This document shows, piece by piece, positions 1,689 through 19,441 of a DNA stretch of 64,000 nucleotides (positions are counted from its first letter, which is position 1; each line of letters begins with the position of its first letter). The notes below the pieces were generated by a model that had not been told where the DNA came from, made no database searches, and was given only the letters and a program-made list of their open reading frames with translations. The stretch is from Mycobacterium mantenii (GTDB lineage Bacteria; Actinomycetota; Actinomycetes; Mycobacteriales; Mycobacteriaceae): contig NZ_AP022590.1 of assembly GCF_010731775.1 (NCBI RefSeq), forward strand, positions 496,001 through 560,000, written 5' to 3'. The position numbers were made by a program, and so were the translations under genes.

Positions 1689-2381
1689 ATGAAATACGCA
1701 GAAGACGGCCAACCGCGCGGGCTGAGCATGCCGCGCTCGCGCGGCGCGGTCAGCGGATTGCTCCTGGTCATTTTGGGAGCTTGGGGGGCGTTAATACCGT
1801 TTGTTGGTCCGCATTTTAATTTCGCCTACACACCGGACCGGGATTGGGCGTGGAGCACAGCCCGCGGCTGGCTGGAGGTGGCGCCGGGAGCGGCCACCGC
1901 GTTGGGCGGTTTGTTGCTGATCGTCGCCGGGAACCGGGTCGCCGCCATGCTGGGCGGTTGGCTGGCCGTGCTGGCCGGCGCCTGGTTCGTGGTGGGCGGT
2001 CAGGTCGCACCATTGTTGGGCATCGGCTCCGCCGGTGATCCCATCGCCGCGACCGAACGCAAGCGCGCGGTGCTCGAGGTCACGTACTTCTCCGGCCTGG
2101 GCGCGCTGATCATCTTCGTCGGTGGCGTCGTGCTGGCGCGCACCGCCGTGCGACTGGCCCGCGACGTGCACCCGGTGGTGGGCGAACCCGCCGCTGCCGC
2201 GCCGAGCGTTGAGCCATACCGGGATTCGGTCTACGAGCCGGCCGAGGTCTCCTCGGGCGCGCTTACCAAGCCGCGATCCTCGGCGGACCCCGAGCCCAAG
2301 CGGGGATGGCGCCATAACCGTGCCGGCGCCGGGACGGGCGCCAAAGCCGCGTATCTGCGCTGGCCGCACCCGCAGCAGTAG
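1689..2381 (+). CDS. Membrane protein of unknown function, paralogue 2
   Basis: 230 residues. It is a paralogue of the gene at 326: both share MPR(T/S)RGA near the N-terminus, a W-rich segment around residue 53, and four hydrophobic spans in the same places. The divergent tails differ: this one ends in a basic stretch without the His cluster. The start at 1689 is preceded by GAGGGG and a 3-base gap to ATG. Upstream is a possible stress-type promoter (1618-1642). The two paralogues bracket the DUF1304 gene, suggesting a local tandem duplication or a functional trio of membrane proteins. No catalytic motif is visible. Confidence 0.8.
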   Translation: MKYAEDGQPRGLSMPRSRGAVSGLLLVILGAWGALIPFVGPHFNFAYTPDRDWAWSTARGWLEVAPGAATALGGLLLIVAGNRVAAMLGGWLAVLAGAWFVVGGQVAPLLGIGSAGDPIAATERKRAVLEVTYFSGLGALIIFVGGVVLARTAVRLARDVHPVVGEPAAAAPSVEPYRDSVYEPAEVSSGALTKPRSSADPEPKRGWRHNRAGAGTGAKAAYLRWPHPQQ

Positions 2382-2390
2382 TTTCCACAC

Positions 2391-2434
2391 AAAACAAGTC
2401 GCCCAGCCCTGAAAAGGGCTGGGCGACTTGTTTT
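2391..2434. terminator. Bidirectional terminator, 20-bp perfect stem
   Basis: The arms 2391-2410 and 2415-2434 are perfect reverse complements (core AAGTCGCCCAGCCCT / AGGGCTGGGCGACTT) around a GAAA tetraloop. The stem starts with AAAA and ends with TTTT, giving a T-run on both strands. It separates two convergent genes and should end transcription from both sides. Confidence 0.92.
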
Positions 2435-2444
2435 TCGGCCTACC

Positions 2445-5400
2445 TTAGAGCAGTCCGAGCAACTGCAGGTTGGTGATGTACTTGACGATGACCGGCGCCG
2501 AGACATGTGGAATGTCTTTGTCGGGGCCGATTTTCGCTTCCTGCACCGCCGCGCGGAACACATCGGTGGGCGCCATCGAGCCGTTGATCGGCACTGAAGG
2601 CTTCTGGTAGTTGTGCAACAACGGCAGCAGCGAGTACTGGCGCTGCCGATCCGGCAGGGCCCGCAGCGACATCTCGAACCGCCGCAGCCACTCGGAGTAA
2701 TCGTCGATGCGCTCGATCGAATACCCGGCCTCGACAAGCCAGTCGATGTACTCGTCGAGTCCGACGCCGTCGTCGTACGGGTTCATCACGTGGTACGTCT
2801 GGAAACCGTTGTCGCTGTCGGTGATCTGTGCTCCCAGCGTCGAGATCGCGGCCGCGATGAACTCGACCGGCAGGCCGTCGTAGTGCGCCCGCTGCCGGTT
2901 GCCGTCGGCGTCGAGCTCGTAGAACGAACCGGGCGCGATACCGGTGGCGACCAGGCTCAGCATCAGCCGGGTGAACATGTCCGGCAGGTTGAGCTGTCCG
3001 GCATAGGTGGTGTCGGCCAGGATCATGTCGCAACGGAACACCGAGACGGGCAGACCGCACAGGTCGTGGGCCTCACGCAGCAACACCTCGCCGGCCCACT
3101 TGCTGTTGCCGTAGCCGTTGGCGTAGTTGTCGTTGATCTCGCGGGTGGCGCTGATCTGCCGGATGTCGGCGTTCTCGACGAACTTGCCCGGCTCGATCTG
3201 GTCACCCACACCGATCGTCGACACGTACGTGTACGGCTTCTGCTTGGACGTCAACGCAATCCGGATCAGCTCCGCGGTGCCCAGCGCGTTGGGCCCGAAC
3301 AGCTCGCTGTAGGGCAGCACGTGGTTCACCAGCGCCGCCGGGTCGACGATGACATCGACCGTGTCGGCCAGCCGCTGCCAGGTCTGCTGGTCCAGGCCGA
3401 GGTTGGCCTCGCCCTTGTCACCCGCGATGACCTCGAGGTGGTCGGCGGCCAGCTTCTGGTAGTGCGCCAACAGCTTCGGGTCGCCTTCGGGAGAGCCAAC
3501 GCCGAACGTCTTGTCCAGCCGGGCGCGCGCCTCCTCGTCGGACTTGGCCCGCACCAGGGCGATCACCTTGCCGTCGACCATGTCCATCCGCTCGAGCCAG
3601 TCCAGCGCCAGGTAACGGCCCAGGAATCCGGTCGCGCCGGTCAACAGCACCGTGCGCACCTCGGTCGCCGGCTTGGGCAGGCTCGGCGCGGCGGCCAGGA
3701 TGGCCTCGTCGAGGAACTTGTCCAGGGTGAGGTCACTGGCGCGCACCGTGGTCGCGCCGCGTCCGTGCACGGCGGCGAACGTCGGCCGCTTGGACCCATG
3801 CCGCTCGGCCTCGATGTAGTCGGCGATGGCCGCCAGGTCGTTGGCCGGGCTCACGATGACACCCACCGGCACGTCGACGTCGAAGATCTCGCGCAGCAAG
3901 TTTCCGAATGTCAACGCCGACAACGAGTCTCCACCGAGATCGGTGAAGTGGGCGTCGGGGGACAGGTCGCCGGCCGCCGCGCCCAGCATGGCGGCCGCGG
4001 CCCGGCTCACGGTCTGCAGCACCGGCGCCTCGGCACCGCTGCGGCGCAGTTCGGCCAGCTCGTTGGCCTGTCCAGCGGCCAGGTCGGCGTAGATCTGCTC
4101 GAGCCGTTCCCCGTAGTGCTGCTTGAGCTTCGGCCACGCCAGCTTGCGGATCCCGGTCAGCAAACCGTTTTCCAGAGTGAACGGGGTGGTCTCGATGATG
4201 AAGTCGCGCGGCACCTCGTAGGACTGCAGGTCGGTCTCTTTCGCGACCTTCTGCAACGAGTCGGCGATCTTCGGCTTGAGTGACTCAACGTCGTTGTCCG
4301 CCAAGGCTTCTTCGGTCGGCACCACCACGGCCAGCAGGTAGGGCTGGGCGCTGTTGCCGTAGACGTAGATCTGGCGGATCAGCGGGCTGTTGCCGAACAC
4401 CGCCTCCAGCTTGGCCAGCGTCACGAACTCGCCCTGCGCAAGCTTGAGCACATTGTTGCGGCGGTCGACGTACACCAGGCGGTCCGGGGCGATCTCGGCG
4501 AACACGTCACCGGTCCGGTAGTACCCGTCTTCATCGAAAACGTTGGCCGTGGTCTCGGGCCGCTTGTAGTAGCCGGGGAACATGTTCTCGGTCCGCAGCA
4601 ACAGCTCACCGCGCGGATGCGGCCGGTCGGTGCCGAAGTAACCCAGATCCGGAACGTCGACCAACTTGTAGTCGACCACCGGCGGACGCTGAATCTCGCC
4701 GTCGAGCAACACCATTCCGGCCTCGGTCGAGCCGTAGCCGTCCATCAGGTGCATCTGCAGCAGCGACTCGGCCCACTTCTTCAACTCCGGTGAGGTGGGT
4801 GCGGAGCCCGTCATCGCGAAGATGAACCGCCCGCCCAGCAGGTACTGGCGCTGTTCCTCGAGCACCGCGGCCTCCACGGTCTCGCGGTCCGCGCCGTCGG
4901 CCAGACGCCGCTCGACCTGGCGCTGGAATTCACCGAACAGTGTCTCCCAGATCCGCGGGACAAAGTTCATCTCGGTGGGCCGCACCAGTTCGAGATCCTC
5001 GAGCAGGGTGGACAGGTCGCTGCGGGCCGCAAAGTAGGCGGTGCCACCATTTCCCAACGTGCCGTACAGGATTCCGCGTCCCATGACGTGGCTCATCGGC
5101 ATGAAGTTGAGGGTGATCGATGCGGCGCTCTCGCCGAACCAGTTCTTGCTGCCGCGCCGCCACATCTTGCCGACGTTGCTCTGCGGGTACATCGCGCCCT
5201 TGGGCGCGCCGGTGCTGCCGGAGGTGTAGATCAGCAGGGCCAGCGAGTCCTCGTCGGTCGCCCGCTCGGCAACCGCCGGCAGGTTTTTGCCGCGCTGCAG
5301 CACGTCGGCGAACGTCTCGACGGCCACGCCGGTGCCGGCCAGCCGCGCCACGGCGCCGCCCACGGCCTCGCGCTGGTCGTCGACCTCGGGCTGATAGTCG

Positions 5401-13485: not shown

Positions 13486-13528
13486 CCCTGAAGCATTGGA
13501 GATATCCTCGAATTCGGAGGTGACCACC

Positions 13529-15898
13529 GTGGCGGAGGAAAACAGCGCGGCGCAAGCGCTTGAAGCGCCCGAGGAGCCGCCGGCCACCACGCAGCCGATG
13601 GAGATTCCGGAGCCACCGACGGAATCCCTGAAAACGTCCAGCAGCGCGTCGCGGCGGGTCCGGGCCAGGCTGGCCCGCCGGATGACCGCCCAGCGCAGCA
13701 CCCTCAACCCGGTGCTCGAACCGCTGGTTGCGGTGCACCGGGAGGTCTACCCGAAGGCGAACGTGTCGCTGCTGCAGCGCGCCTTCGAGGTCGCCGACCA
13801 GCGGCACGCCAGCCAGTTGCGCCATTCCGGCGACCCCTACATCACCCACCCGCTGGCCGTCGCCACCATTCTGGCCGAATTGGGTATGGACACCACCACT
13901 TTGGTGGCCGCGCTGCTGCACGACACCGTGGAGGACACCGGGTACACCCTGGACGCTTTGAGCGAGGAATTCGGTGAGGAGGTGGGCCATCTCGTCGATG
14001 GCGTCACCAAACTGGACCGGGTGGTGTTGGGCAACGCCGCCGAAGGCGAGACCATCCGCAAGATGATCACCGCGATGGCGCGCGATCCCCGCGTGCTGGT
14101 GATCAAGGTCGCCGACCGGCTGCACAACATGCGCACCATGCGGTTCCTGCCGCCGGAGAAGCAGGCGCGCAAGGCCCGTGAGACGCTGGAAGTCATTGCG
14201 CCCCTTGCGCATCGGCTGGGTATGGCCAGCGTCAAATGGGAACTGGAAGACCTGTCGTTCGCGATCCTGCATCCCAAGAAGTACGAGGAGATCGTTCGGC
14301 TGGTCGCCGGGCGCGCCCCGTCGCGGGACACCTACCTGGCCAAGGTACGCACCGAGATCGTCAACACCTTGAACGCGTCGAAGATCAAGGCGACGGTGGA
14401 GGGCCGCCCCAAGCACTACTGGTCGATCTACCAGAAGATGATCGTCAAGGGGCGAGACTTCGACGACATCCACGACCTGGTCGGCATCCGCATCCTGTGC
14501 GACGAGATCCGGGACTGCTATGCCGCTGTGGGCGTGGTGCATTCGCTGTGGCAGCCGATGGCGGGCCGGTTCAAGGATTACATCGCCCAGCCGCGCTACG
14601 GCGTGTACCAGTCGCTGCACACCACCGTCATCGGTCCGGAGGGCAAGCCGCTGGAGATCCAGATCCGCACCCGCGAGATGCACCGCACCGCCGAGTACGG
14701 GATCGCCGCGCACTGGCGCTACAAAGAAGCCAAGGGCCGCAACGGCGTTCCGCATCCGCACGCCGCCGCCGAGATCGACGACATGGCCTGGATGCGCCAG
14801 CTGCTCGACTGGCAGCGGGAGGCCGCCGACCCGGGCGAGTTCCTCGAGTCGTTGCGTTATGACCTTGCGGTACAAGAGATCTTCGTGTTCACCCCCAAGG
14901 GTGACGTCATCACCCTGCCGACCGGCTCGACGCCGGTGGACTTCGCCTACGCGGTGCACACCGAGGTGGGCCACCGCTGCATCGGCGCGCGGGTCAACGG
15001 GCGCCTGGTGGCGCTGGAACGGAAGCTGGAAAACGGGGAAGTCGTCGAGGTTTTCACCTCCAAGGCCGCCAGCGCCGGGCCGTCGCGGGACTGGCAGCAA
15101 TTCGTGGTGTCACCGCGCGCCAAGGCGAAGATCCGGCAATGGTTCGCCAAGGAGCGCCGCGAGGAGGCGCTGGAGGCCGGCAAGGACGCCATGGCCCGCG
15201 AGGTGCGTCGCGGTGGACTTCCGTTGCAGCGCTTGGTCAATGGTGAAACCCTGGGGGCGGTGGCCCGCGAGCTGCACTACACCGATGTGTCCGCCCTCTA
15301 CACCGCGATCGGTGAGGGGCACGTGTCGGCCCGGCACGTCGTGCAGCGGCTGCTGGCCGAACTCGGGGGCATCGACCAGGCCGAGGAGGACCTCGCCGAA
15401 CGGTCGACCCCGACGACCATGCTGCGGCGGCCCCGCAGCAGCGACGACGTCGGCGTCTCGGTCCCCGGCGCCCCCGGCGTGCTGACCAAGCTGGCGAAAT
15501 GCTGCACCCCGGTGCCCGGCGACCAGATTATGGGGTTCGTCACCCGCGGCGGCGGGGTGAGCGTGCACCGCACCGACTGCACCAACGCCGCCTCGCTGCA
15601 GCAGCAGTCCGAGCGCATCATCGAAGTGCACTGGGCGCCGTCGCCGTCGTCGGTGTTCCTGGTCGCCATCCAGGTCGAGGCGCTCGACCGGCACCGGCTG
15701 CTGTCGGACGTCACGCGGGTGCTGGCCGACGAGAAGGTCAACATCCTGTCCGCGTCCGTCGCGACGTCGGGTGACCGAGTCGCGATCAGCCGCTTCACCT
15801 TTGAGATGGGCGACCCCAAGCATCTCGGCCATCTGCTCAATGTCGTGCGCAACGTCGAAGGCGTTTACGACGTCTATCGCGTCACGTCGGCGGCCTGA
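13529..15898 (+). CDS. relA: Bifunctional (p)ppGpp synthetase/hydrolase Rel
   Basis: 789 residues from the GTG at 13529. That start is chosen because GGAGG (13516-13520) lies 8 bases upstream and the length then equals the 790-residue mycobacterial protein; an in-frame ATG at 13496 would add 11 residues. Domains: HD hydrolase (His93, HDTVED 131-136), synthetase with the RFKD signature of bifunctional enzymes and [15 protein letters not shown] domain ([16 protein letters not shown]), zinc-finger-like KCCTPVPGD, and a C-terminal ACT domain. It makes and degrades the stringent-response alarmone in the cytoplasm, regulated through the ribosome and the C-terminal half. Confidence 0.97.
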
Positions 15899-15906
15899 CC
15901 CTGGGG

Positions 15907-15924
15907 TGAGCCCGCCCGGGCTCA
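15907..15924. terminator. Hairpin between convergent rel and the kinase gene
   Basis: TGAGCCCG (15907-15914) pairs with CGGGCTCA (15917-15924). It lies 8 bases past the rel stop and overlaps the stop codon of the opposite gene, so it could serve both directions. The stem is short and has no T-run. Confidence 0.45.
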
Positions 15925-17688
15925 GGTCAGCCGCACCGCGGTGATCTTCACCGGGTTGGTGGGCGCACCGCTCTGGCGATTGCCGGCGATGCCGGCCCGG
16001 GCGATCTTGTCCAGAGTCGCCAGCCCCGCCTGGTCGATGGTGCCCAGCACCGTGCTCTGCGGTTCCATCTCGGAATCCTTGAAGATCAGTGCGAACTGGC
16101 TGCCGTTGGTGTTGGGTCCCTCGGTGGCCATGACGATGGTGCCGCGCGGATACACCACCGTCGCGCGCAGTGCGGGGTCGTCGGGTTTGTATTGGTCCGC
16201 GGGGTACTCGTCGGCGAATTCGTAACCGGGGCCACCGGAGCCGTCCACGTCGGGACCCCCGCACAACAGCGACCCGCCATCCTGGGAGCTGATCAGCCGG
16301 GCGCACTGGGTGTTGTCGAAGAATTGCTGCCTGGCCAGGCTGACGAAACTGTTCACCGCGCACGGGGACTCGGAATTGGCGAGCTGGATGGCGATGTCGC
16401 CGAAGTTGGTGGCGATGACGGCGCCGATCTGCGGGGGAGTGGTGGACACCCTGCCCGTCGGCGGCGGGTTCACCGACCGGGCGGCCGGGTCGGGCACGGA
16501 GCGGTATTGGCAGTTGGCGCCCAGATCGGGTGGCGGTGCGAACGCCGGCAGTGGCGGGGCCGTCGCCGACGCCGGGTCGCTCGTACCGGGGTTGGAGCCG
16601 GACCTGCCGGGCACCCGGGCCCGGGTCTGGGTGGACGATGCCGCGCTGTCGGCCGAACCGTGACTCTGGGTCACCACTGCGATGACCAAGACCGCCACGG
16701 CGGCCAGCGCCAGTGCCGAGGCGCCGAAGACGCCGGCCAGCAACCGCCGCGAATGGGTCGGACGGTGTTGTTGCGCATCGGGTTTGCTCCCAGGCGGGGG
16801 ACAAGCCGGCCCCAGCGGCGCCGTGCCGGGCGGTGGTGACGTGCTCGACGTGGTGGCCAGGCCATCGGCGGCCAGCACTGCCCTGGCGGCCGCGGCGAGC
16901 TCCATTGCGGTCTGATAACGCTGTTCGGGATCCTTGGCCATTCCGCGGGCGACGACCGCGTCGAAACCCGTTGGAACGCCGGGTGCGGTTGCCGACGTTC
17001 GCGGTGGCGGCGCGTTCAGGTGCGCGTTGAGCTGTTCTTCGAGGCTTTCCCCCGCGAAGGGGCGCTTCCCGGTCAGGCACTCGTGCAAAACGCAGGCCAG
17101 CGAGTAGACGTCGGCACGGTGATCCGTTTTGCCCTTGAAGCGCTCGGGCGCCATGTACGCGACGGTGCCCATCGTGGCACCGGTCTGCGTGAGTTGAGTG
17201 TCGGCCTCCGCGCGGGCAAGACCGAAGTCAATCAGGTAGACGAAATTGTGTGCCGTGGTGATCAAGATGTTCATCGGTTTGATGTCGCGGTGGATCAACC
17301 CCGCGTGGTGGGCGCTGTCCAGCGCCGCGGCAACCTGCTCGATCACCGCGACCGTCTGCTCCGGGCTGAGTCGGTCGCCGTTCTCCTTGATGTAGTGGGA
17401 CAGGTCGCGGCCCTCGATCAGCCGCATGTCGACATAGAGCCGACCGTCGAGCTCGCCATAACCATGGATTGGCACCACGTGCGGGTCGTTGAGACCGGCC
17501 GCTATGCGTGCCTCCCGGCGGAAACGCTGCTGAAAATCTTGATCCTCAGCCAAATGCGGCGGGAGCACCTTGAGAGCCACCACCCGGTCCGTGGTCGCGT
17601 CGTAGGCGCGGTACACGCGTCCCATCCCGCCGCGCCCCAACAACTCCAATATCCGGTAATGACCGAATGAGTCCGGATCCAGATTCAC
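15922..17688 (-). CDS. Receptor Ser/Thr protein kinase with a cyclophilin-fold ectodomain
   Basis: 588 residues. Residues 10-270 form a complete Hanks-type kinase: Gly loop GRGGMG (18-23), Lys40, HRDIKPMN (133-140), DFG (154-156), Thr-containing activation loop and APE (180-182). It most resembles the PknE/PknH group (MRLIEGRDL). A Pro-rich juxtamembrane part leads to one membrane span (about 316-339), then a Ser/Pro-rich linker and a cyclophilin-type domain (about 420-588) with NTNGSQF. The outer part is plainly paralogous to the neighbouring PpiB (GANCQY, four shared cysteines, ESPC-VNSF, GGPGYEFADEYP). His and several pocket residues of cyclophilins are replaced (see findings). The start is GTG 17688; TATGGT 6 bases upstream suggests leaderless transcription. 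Confidence 0.93.
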   Translation of the reverse strand: MNLDPDSFGHYRILELLGRGGMGRVYRAYDATTDRVVALKVLPPHLAEDQDFQQRFRREARIAAGLNDPHVVPIHGYGELDGRLYVDMRLIEGRDLSHYIKENGDRLSPEQTVAVIEQVAAALDSAHHAGLIHRDIKPMNILITTAHNFVYLIDFGLARAEADTQLTQTGATMGTVAYMAPERFKGKTDHRADVYSLACVLHECLTGKRPFAGESLEEQLNAHLNAPPPRTSATAPGVPTGFDAVVARGMAKDPEQRYQTAMELAAAARAVLAADGLATTSSTSPPPGTAPLGPACPPPGSKPDAQQHRPTHSRRLLAGVFGASALALAAVAVLVIAVVTQSHGSADSAASSTQTRARVPGRSGSNPGTSDPASATAPPLPAFAPPPDLGANCQYRSVPDPAARSVNPPPTGRVSTTPPQIGAVIATNFGDIAIQLANSESPCAVNSFVSLARQQFFDNTQCARLISSQDGGSLLCGGPDVDGSGGPGYEFADEYPADQYKPDDPALRATVVYPRGTIVMATEGPNTNGSQFALIFKDSEMEPQSTVLGTIDQAGLATLDKIARAGIAGNRQSGAPTNPVKITAVRLT

Positions 17689-17763: not shown

Positions 17764-18666
17764 CTAGTCGAGCGCCACCGAGGTGATGGTCACCTCGGTG
17801 GCGGGTGCGCCGTCTGCACCGCCGCCGGCGACGCCGGCCTTGGCGATCTTGTCCAGGGTGGCCAGCCCGTCGGCCTGGATGGTGCCGAAGACGGTGTATT
17901 GCGGCGGCAGCTGGGAGTCCTTGTAGACCAAGAAGAATTGGCTGCCGTTGGTGCCGGGTCCGGCGTTGGCCATGGCCAGGGTGCCGCGCGGATAGAGCAC
18001 GGGTTCTTGGGCCTTGGGGTCATTCGGTGGGAATTGGTCGGTCGGGTACTCGTTGGCGAATTGGTAGCCCGGACCACCGGTGCCCTCGCCCTTGGGGTCA
18101 CCGCATTGCAAGACGCTCAGGCCCTGCGAGGTGGTCAGCCGGTGGCACTTGGTGTTGTCGAAGTATTTCTGGCCGGCCAGGCTCGCGAAACTGTTGACGG
18201 TGCAAGGTGATTCGTTGTTGGCCAGCATCAGACCGATGTGGCCCTGGTTGGTCACCATGCTAACGCTCACCTGGGCTGGATCGGTCGGTATCTTGCCGGT
18301 CCGCGGCGGCTTGACCTGCTTGGCCGCCGGCTCGGACGAGGCCGGGTACTGGCAGTTGGCGCCGACGGTGTCCGACGGCTTGAAGGGGGGCAGCGGCGGA
18401 ACCTGACCCGGCTGGCCGGGAGCCGTCGTGTCCAGCGAGCTGCTGCTGCTGCTGCTGGTGGTCGTCGTCGATGCCGCGGTGTTGCTCTTGTGGTCGTGCT
18501 TGGTGTTGACGATCGTGATCACCACCGCTGCGATCACGGCCACGGCCACGATCGAGCCGGCCGCGATCAGTACGATCCGGCGGGTTTTGGCTTGCTTCGC
18601 GCGCCGCTCCAACTGCCGTTCGAGCTTGCGTTTGGCGGTGGCACGTCGCTGTTCGTTGGTCGGCAC
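17764..18666 (-). CDS. ppiB: Membrane-anchored peptidyl-prolyl isomerase (cyclophilin) PpiB
   Basis: 300 residues from the GTG at 18666. It is chosen because GGAGG sits 10 bases upstream and the protein then starts PTNEQRRATAKRKLERQ, as in mycobacterial PpiB; longer in-frame starts read through unlikely sequence. A basic N-terminus is followed by one membrane span (about 31-52), a Ser/Pro linker and a cyclophilin domain outside the membrane. Cyclophilin residues seen are CHRL (the catalytic Arg), LQCGD and NGSQFF. Four cysteines are shared with the kinase ectodomain next door. It would catalyse cis-trans isomerisation of proline bonds in exported proteins. It is divergent from the hydrolase gene at 18785. 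Confidence 0.93.
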   Translation of the reverse strand: MPTNEQRRATAKRKLERQLERRAKQAKTRRIVLIAAGSIVAVAVIAAVVITIVNTKHDHKSNTAASTTTTSSSSSSSLDTTAPGQPGQVPPLPPFKPSDTVGANCQYPASSEPAAKQVKPPRTGKIPTDPAQVSVSMVTNQGHIGLMLANNESPCTVNSFASLAGQKYFDNTKCHRLTTSQGLSVLQCGDPKGEGTGGPGYQFANEYPTDQFPPNDPKAQEPVLYPRGTLAMANAGPGTNGSQFFLVYKDSQLPPQYTVFGTIQADGLATLDKIAKAGVAGGGADGAPATEVTITSVALD

Positions 18667-18771: not shown

Positions 18772-18777
18772 GAAAAT
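18772..18777 (+). promoter_or_regulatory. Possible -10 box of a leaderless promoter
   Basis: GAAAAT ends 7 bases before the GTG at 18785. The same layout precedes several other genes in this window that lack ribosome sites. It fits a leaderless transcript starting at the GTG. Confidence 0.4.
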
Positions 18778-18784
18778 GGGCGGT

Positions 18785-19441
18785 GTGTTGATCACCGGAT
18801 TTCCCGCGGGCATGTTGCAGTGCAACTGCTATGTGCTGGCCGAGCGGCCGGGAACGGACGCCGTCATCGTCGATCCGGGGCAGCGGGTGATGGGCCAGTT
18901 GCGCAACATCCTGGACAAGAACCGGCTGACGCCGGCCGCGGTGTTGCTGACCCACGGGCACATCGACCACATGTGGTCGGCGCAGAAGGTGTCGGACACC
19001 TACGGTTGCCCGACCTACATCCATCCCGAGGACAGGTTCATGCTCACCGACCCGATCTACGGCCTGGGCCCGCGCCTGGCGCAGATGGTGGCGGGCGCTT
19101 TCTGGCGCGAGCCCAAACAGGTCGTCGAGCTGGACCGCGACGGCGACAAGCTCGACCTGGGCAGCGTGACCGTCAACGTCGATCACACGCCCGGGCACAC
19201 CCGCGGGTCGGTGGTGTTTCGGGTGTCGTCCGACAAGGACGTCGTTTTCACCGGCGACACGCTCTTCGAACGTTCGGTGGGGCGCACCGACCTGCACGGT
19301 GGCAGCGGCCGCGACCTGCTGACCTCCATAATCGACAAGCTGCTGGTGCTCGACGACAAGACGGTCGTGCTGCCGGGGCACGGCAGCGCCACCACCATCG
19401 GCGCCGAGCGGCGCCTCAACCCGTTCCTCGAAGGCCTGTAG
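18785..19441 (+). CDS. Metallo-beta-lactamase fold hydrolase (glyoxalase II-like)
   Basis: 218 residues. The zinc-binding signature THGHIDH is at 56-62, with further ligands in DHTPGHTRGS, FTGDTLF and LPGHG. This is the pattern of the glyoxalase II/hydroxyacylglutathione hydrolase group, although mycobacteria lack glutathione, so the true thioester substrate is uncertain. The start at GTG 18785 gives the MLITGFPAG terminus usual for the orthologue (Rv2581c); an ATG at 18776 is in frame 3 codons upstream. It ends 3 bases before hisS and is probably co-transcribed with it. Confidence 0.88.
   Translation: MLITGFPAGMLQCNCYVLAERPGTDAVIVDPGQRVMGQLRNILDKNRLTPAAVLLTHGHIDHMWSAQKVSDTYGCPTYIHPEDRFMLTDPIYGLGPRLAQMVAGAFWREPKQVVELDRDGDKLDLGSVTVNVDHTPGHTRGSVVFRVSSDKDVVFTGDTLFERSVGRTDLHGGSGRDLLTSIIDKLLVLDDKTVVLPGHGSATTIGAERRLNPFLEGL

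Follow-up and report, generated by a model that had tools for sequence, protein, structure and literature searches.

The window analysed here is a 64,000-nucleotide stretch from the genome of the slow grower Mycobacterium mantenii (contig NZ_AP022590.1, positions 496,001 to 560,000), and it carries a gene that joins a Ser/Thr kinase to a cyclophilin in one reading frame. The gene lies on the reverse strand (15922..17688; GTG start at 17688, stop at 15922) and encodes 588 amino acids without an internal stop. Pfam assigned Pkinase to residues 11-259 (16912..17658, reverse strand; E = 1.7e-45) and Pro_isomerase to residues 425-585 (E = 2.3e-17), the latter within a PpiB-homologous ectodomain of residues 378-587 (15928..16557, reverse strand). 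Between the two domains, hydropathy revealed one strong hydrophobic span of PpiB-like sequence at about residues 316-339 (16672..16743, reverse strand). The cyclophilin domain would be extracytoplasmic, since SRR stands just before the span. Immediately upstream of the kinase gene, in the same direction and 75 bp from its start, lies ppiB, which encodes a membrane-anchored cyclophilin (17764..18666, reverse strand; start set at the GTG of VPTNEQRR, stop at 17764). On the forward strand, a relA-like gene (13496..15898) converges with the kinase gene across 23 bp, and a glyoxalase-like hydrolase gene (18776..19438) flanks ppiB on the other side. The names relA, glyoxalase-like hydrolase, ppiA and ppiB are those that we take these genes to bear.

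A preliminary description of this DNA had proposed a complete kinase, a single membrane span, an outer cyclophilin domain and a ppiB gene 75 bases away in the same direction; our analysis bears out each of these, the outer location being the probable one. It had also held that a stop or frameshift between the kinase and cyclophilin parts would overturn its proposal. None was present in the frame, and a sequencing artefact is very unlikely because numerous other genomes carry the fusion in a single frame as well; chance or artefact was rejected as an explanation on this ground.

The kinase half contains K40, HRD (D135), DFG (D154) and APE (E182) where the description had placed them, and thus combines the complete catalytic motifs with the single span of a Hanks-type receptor Ser/Thr kinase. 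Conservation was assessed in 121 proteins, namely the window protein and its 120 nearest homologues. K40 was found in 120 (with one gap), and E59, D135, N140, D154, E182 and the activation-loop residue T167 in all 121; the second activation-loop threonine, T169, was kept in 111. The protein is most likely, judging from its sequence, a receptor kinase of the PknE/PknH/PknD group. Its likeness to PknE had been recognized before, and among the 18 kinase matches in the genome the highest-scoring other kinase, L100 (52.5% identity, 284 bits), is presumably PknE, a name that we assign on the basis of its CPPC-bearing outer part. The window protein was rejected as a PknE orthologue, however, since the kinases at the relA-ppiB locus form a clade separate from PknE in the kinase tree (support 93/88), the genome has its own PknE, and the ectodomain is a cyclophilin. 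The same genome gave three cyclophilin matches (ppiA, ppiB and the kinase-cyclophilin gene), and close to ppiA, at a distance of no more than 4 kb, lie two neighbouring kinase genes (G000:C1:4377216-4383313; L001, L094, L096) that we take to be pknB/pknA-like.

The ectodomain aligned with PpiB without a gap (119/210 identical, 57%; E = 4e-74), and its cysteines 393, 443, 462 and 476 coincide with the four of PpiB, confirming the alignment throughout the outer half that had been described. A first structural model was weak (pLDDT, the predicted local distance difference test score, 70.6), its Foldseek matches already being cyclophilins; with a deeper alignment the predicted structure reached a pLDDT of 95 and had the cyclophilin fold. 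To the ectodomain we applied the pocket positions R55, M61, Q63, N102, Q111, F113 and H126, which we assume to be those of cyclophilins in general; R55 is the residue most needed for cyclophilin catalysis. The window ectodomain keeps R55 and Q111 and carries Leu for Q63, Thr for N102, Ala for F113 and Ser for H126, where PpiB has Tyr, so that it lacks the full set of catalytic and pocket residues of a cyclophilin peptidyl-prolyl isomerase (PPIase). Changes were widespread in the 121 proteins, affecting H54 in 121, Q63 in 110, the Tyr of PpiB at H126 in 109, N102 in 97 and F113 in 96, and not one protein kept both Q63 and F113. PpiB itself kept these two residues in 58 of 58 ppiB1 rows. By sequence the pocket is remodelled, and the cyclophilin is most likely catalytically weak or dead. 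Both the kinase and the ectodomain are under purifying selection; with most of the catalytic pocket lost, the ectodomain is probably a sensor.

The preliminary description held that the ectodomain had been copied from the neighbouring ppiB, and the phylogeny contradicts this. In a cyclophilin tree with outgroups (121 rows, midpoint root, bootstrap not fully settled), all Mycobacterium cyclophilins of the locus formed one clade (71 rows, 100/99). A clade of 25 ppiB1 rows, from relatives of the window lineage, and two kinase-borne rows (100/92) excluded the window-type ectodomains, 22 of which formed a clade of their own (100/99). Locus L065 joined the latter (99/85), as read by elimination from the printed part of the tree. 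When 12 window-type ectodomains were forced to group with five ppiB rows of the window lineage (48 rows), the approximately unbiased (AU) test rejected the arrangement (p = 0.003), the group having been picked after a tree had been inspected. A fresh copy of ppiB in the window lineage is ruled out by the tree and this test, which together show the ectodomain to be, by phylogeny, an old paralogue descended from a PpiB-type gene at the locus. The proposed local duplication thus fails for the window lineage, although local copying was seen in other strains (L041 and L057). The membrane span may derive from PpiB: against a PpiB transmembrane profile the window span scored 24.8, compared with a best score of 18.5 among 75 control segments, and 18 of 25 spans outscored all 75 controls while 7 did not. 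The two top controls were one segment fetched twice, and we regard derivation of the span from PpiB as suggestive only.

At least two cyclophilin genes were present at the locus in 22 of 28 outgroup loci from other genera of the same family (L120-L147, picked partly for closely spaced match pairs), and in 18 of the 28 the flanking relA and glyoxalase-like genes could both be seen as well; the slot thus probably already held a second cyclophilin gene. This second gene starts like a lipoprotein gene in the eight outgroup loci inspected by eye (8/8), and a DUF4190 module forms part of it in certain Mycobacterium (2/2 tested). Across Mycobacterium the slot holds a kinase-cyclophilin gene, a stand-alone second cyclophilin gene (L063, L073, L076) or nothing. 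The kinase-borne cyclophilin of L058 clustered (100/96) with two second genes that stand alone, those of L073 and L076, and this links the kinase-borne form to the slot; the deepest branch order, of L061, L063 and L069, was not settled by the cyclophilin tree. One locus of another genus (L131:4616-7791) contained four tandem cyclophilin genes between relA and the glyoxalase-like gene.

The survey for the same fusion beside ppiB, which the description had called for, revealed a conserved Mycobacterium family at a relA-[kinase-cyclophilin]-ppiB locus. A protein search returned 6279 proteins, the majority apparently kinases of other kinds; both Pfam domains were present in all of the best 120, and the named sources of these were all Mycobacterium. 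The matches listed included M. mantenii (96% identity to the window protein), M. avium subsp. hominissuis (P0039, 76%), M. marseillense, M. scrofulaceum, M. malmoense, M. parmense and others. An ectodomain match was obtained in at least 197 of 198 genomes of the genus, a near-universal result because PpiB matches too. The locus itself was fetched from 70 of these 198 (the window's own, 59, eight and two; a carrier-enriched set, since most were chosen among the highest-ranking matches), and it contained the kinase in 34 and was kinase-free in 36. Among named records, taken from the best 80 of 333 matches, 42 of 67 loci had kinase and cyclophilin in one frame of at least 550 amino acids, including M. 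colombiense, M. vulneris, M. nebraskense, M. alsense, M. triplex, M. sherrisii, M. paraense and M. interjectum DSM 44064. Tandem double copies occurred at L049, L050, L185, L193 and L219, and at L085 (4708-5874) ppiB is adjoined by a kinase of the same family that has a threonine-rich tail and in which Pfam detected no cyclophilin domain. Wider samples gave ectodomain matches in at least 97 of 101 genomes at the family level, six of these being Mycobacterium, and in 73 of 119 at the phylum level. No kinase above 45 bits was detected in the 28 outgroup loci, and a tblastn search of 16 non-genus loci with long open frames, using the window kinase, detected one, in L234. At that locus (2217-5001), which belongs to another genus of the family, a separate Ser/Thr kinase gene stands directly downstream of a gene for a membrane-anchored cyclophilin, and the outer part of the kinase resembles RCC1-type repeats.

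The two halves of the gene have separate histories. In L041 and L057 the kinase is sister to the rest, and the basic segment, span and cyclophilin that come after it are PpiB-like; the cyclophilin falls inside the ppiB clade, nearest to the ppiB of M. avium-like strains (87/92; this label, like slow and fast grower, follows general usage or species names). The L057 domain is near-identical to the L040 ppiB product over about the last two hundred residues and clearly diverged in the span region (233/300 identical overall), a pattern that homologous recombination inside a cyclophilin gene, in either direction, would give. The window gene resembles L035 and L036 at 78-79% DNA identity in the kinase and 89-90% in the cyclophilin, and L045 at 83% and 74%, respectively; the identity shift sits near the linker, and the window's neighbours differ between the kinase and cyclophilin trees with strong support in each. 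RelA identities (97% to L034-L038, 94% to L045 and L047) agree with the cyclophilin half, and it is the kinase half of the window gene that looks foreign to its lineage. Kinase and ectodomain are thus exchanged among lineages at a single site, homologous recombination there being the simplest explanation.

Several irregularities were observed around the junction. No strong inverted repeat was found within the window's linker. In Mycobacterium sp. 4858 (L171:970-4003) a 3.0-kb palindromic stretch with arms 99% identical contains two head-to-head copies of ppiB with the kinase half and ends at the cyclophilin half, through rearrangement or assembly error, and in Mycobacterium sp. E796 (L188 / L044) ppiB and the kinase half are inverted relative to the cyclophilin half. 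The sequence of three draft assemblies (L169/L202, L172/L153, L190/L223) is interrupted between kinase and cyclophilin, and one has an N run there (L170:3288-3656); sequencing of the linker DNA may be difficult.

From these observations we consider it reasonably probable that the protein is a receptor kinase whose remodelled outer cyclophilin senses by binding and is no longer mainly an isomerase. The outer domain would bind an envelope ligand, which may be a peptide containing proline, an exported protein or a different cyclophilin, and binding would dimerise or re-orient the receptor. The kinase could then phosphorylate T167 and T169 of its own activation loop and, next, cytoplasmic targets, as in the usual model of PknB-like receptors.

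Some results weigh against this reading, and part of them favour an ectodomain that is still a working prolyl isomerase. R55, Q111, F112 and A101 are each kept in 110 to 121 of the 121 proteins (R55 in 110, R55 and Q111 jointly in 108), the Tyr of PpiB at H126 is kept in 12 and N102 in 24, and the predicted fold is that of a cyclophilin; because R55 is mostly kept, weak residual isomerase activity is possible. All six relatives examined outside the window type keep R55, Q63, Q111, F112 and F113, a PpiB-like pocket being retained in L041_K1, L057_K1, L058_K1, L061_K1 and L069_K0 and other pocket changes being present in L065; the earliest proteins of this architecture thus probably had an active cyclophilin. 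The ectodomain evolves fast in two of four groups (ratios of nonsynonymous to synonymous substitution, dN/dS, of 0.26 and 0.43, from sets of 4 and 3), and relaxed constraint would give the same. Moreover, the first glycine of the nucleotide loop is a gap in 37 of 121 homologues, perhaps from other predicted starts, and copies are broken or incomplete at L048 (= L207), L054 (= L186), L078, L167 and L213, in species that include M. lepraemurium (L167), M. genavense (L186), M. palustre (L213) and M. interjectum ATCC 51457T (L207); the gene is therefore dispensable there. A working isomerase is nevertheless unlikely for the window type, given the pocket changes counted above, the absence of any protein with Q63 and F113 together, and an intact ppiB only 75 bp away.

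It is also conceivable, if quite improbable, that the pseudo-cyclophilin pairs or competes with PpiB for clients and that the kinase reads the folding load of the envelope. The position of ppiB at the same locus, in the same direction across the 75-bp gap, would suit such partner sensing, as would the retention of PpiB-like cysteines and linker although the pocket differs; an ancestral tandem pair of cyclophilin genes explains the adjacency equally well. Recombination at the locus could also have produced the gene as a neutral or selfish side effect, kept temporarily and then lost. Its mosaic structure and the finding that a number of genomes have it broken, inverted or truncated accord with this, but such an origin is very unlikely in view of purifying selection on both halves and kinase catalytic residues kept in 120-121 of 121 proteins. 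Along with the sensing receptor that we prefer, we put forward only tentatively the idea that the relA-ppiB locus is a workshop for receptor kinases, in which homologous recombination between cyclophilin genes resupplies ectodomains to the kinase and those of one lineage lose the isomerase pocket and become a lineage-specific pseudo-cyclophilin sensor.

The description had known of no such kinase, and here it was overtaken by the literature, in which the architecture has been on record since 2005. Krupa and Srinivasan (2005, PMC1262709) reported from M. avium subsp. paratuberculosis a protein, gi|41407147, with kinase, transmembrane segment and PPIase, confined to M. avium among the genomes then available, and proposed a folding helper. 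The part of the open PubMed Central (PMC) literature that was surveyed, which mostly does not extend to subscription journals, gave this single description of the architecture and no functional study of it. The passages surveyed of a review on kinases in bacteria from 2018 (PMC6213207) mention neither cyclophilin nor isomerase, and those of a 2026 review of pathogen cyclophilins (PMC13162259) do not contain the word kinase. The spread, tandem-slot origin, pocket loss and part swapping, for which the same survey yielded no description, seem to be undescribed. The ligands sensed by bacterial receptor kinases are mostly unknown.

Comparison with known systems places the window protein as follows. 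Its best NCBIfam match is StpK7 (NF052427), over residues 4-356 (kinase and span) at 444.9 bits; this is far under the family's curated cut-off of 900 bits and leaves the cyclophilin part unmatched, so membership was rejected. StpK7 (MSMEG_1200) is a kinase linked to phage TM4 susceptibility (PMC13355554). PknE (Rv1743) is a receptor kinase whose ectodomain is DsbA-like (PMC3792642), and it shares with the window protein a kinase, one span and a folding-enzyme-like outer part; it differs in ectodomain fold, in being present separately in this genome and in its clade. The comparison with PknE that the description had made was already drawn in PMC1262709, which lists the PPIase kinase beside the Dsb-like kinase of M. 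tuberculosis. The window protein has the same three parts in the same order as the protein of Krupa and Srinivasan; P0039 of M. avium subsp. hominissuis has the same residues as the window protein at 15 pocket and cysteine positions. Unlike the present analysis, the parts of PMC1262709 that cover gi|41407147 do not treat locus, pocket or origin. PpiB resembles the ectodomain in sequence, four cysteines and linker, as well as in the span score, and differs in having no kinase and in keeping Q63 and F113. With a well-understood parent enzyme next door, relatives with intact pockets and the changed residues known, the step from enzyme to sensor is open to experiment.
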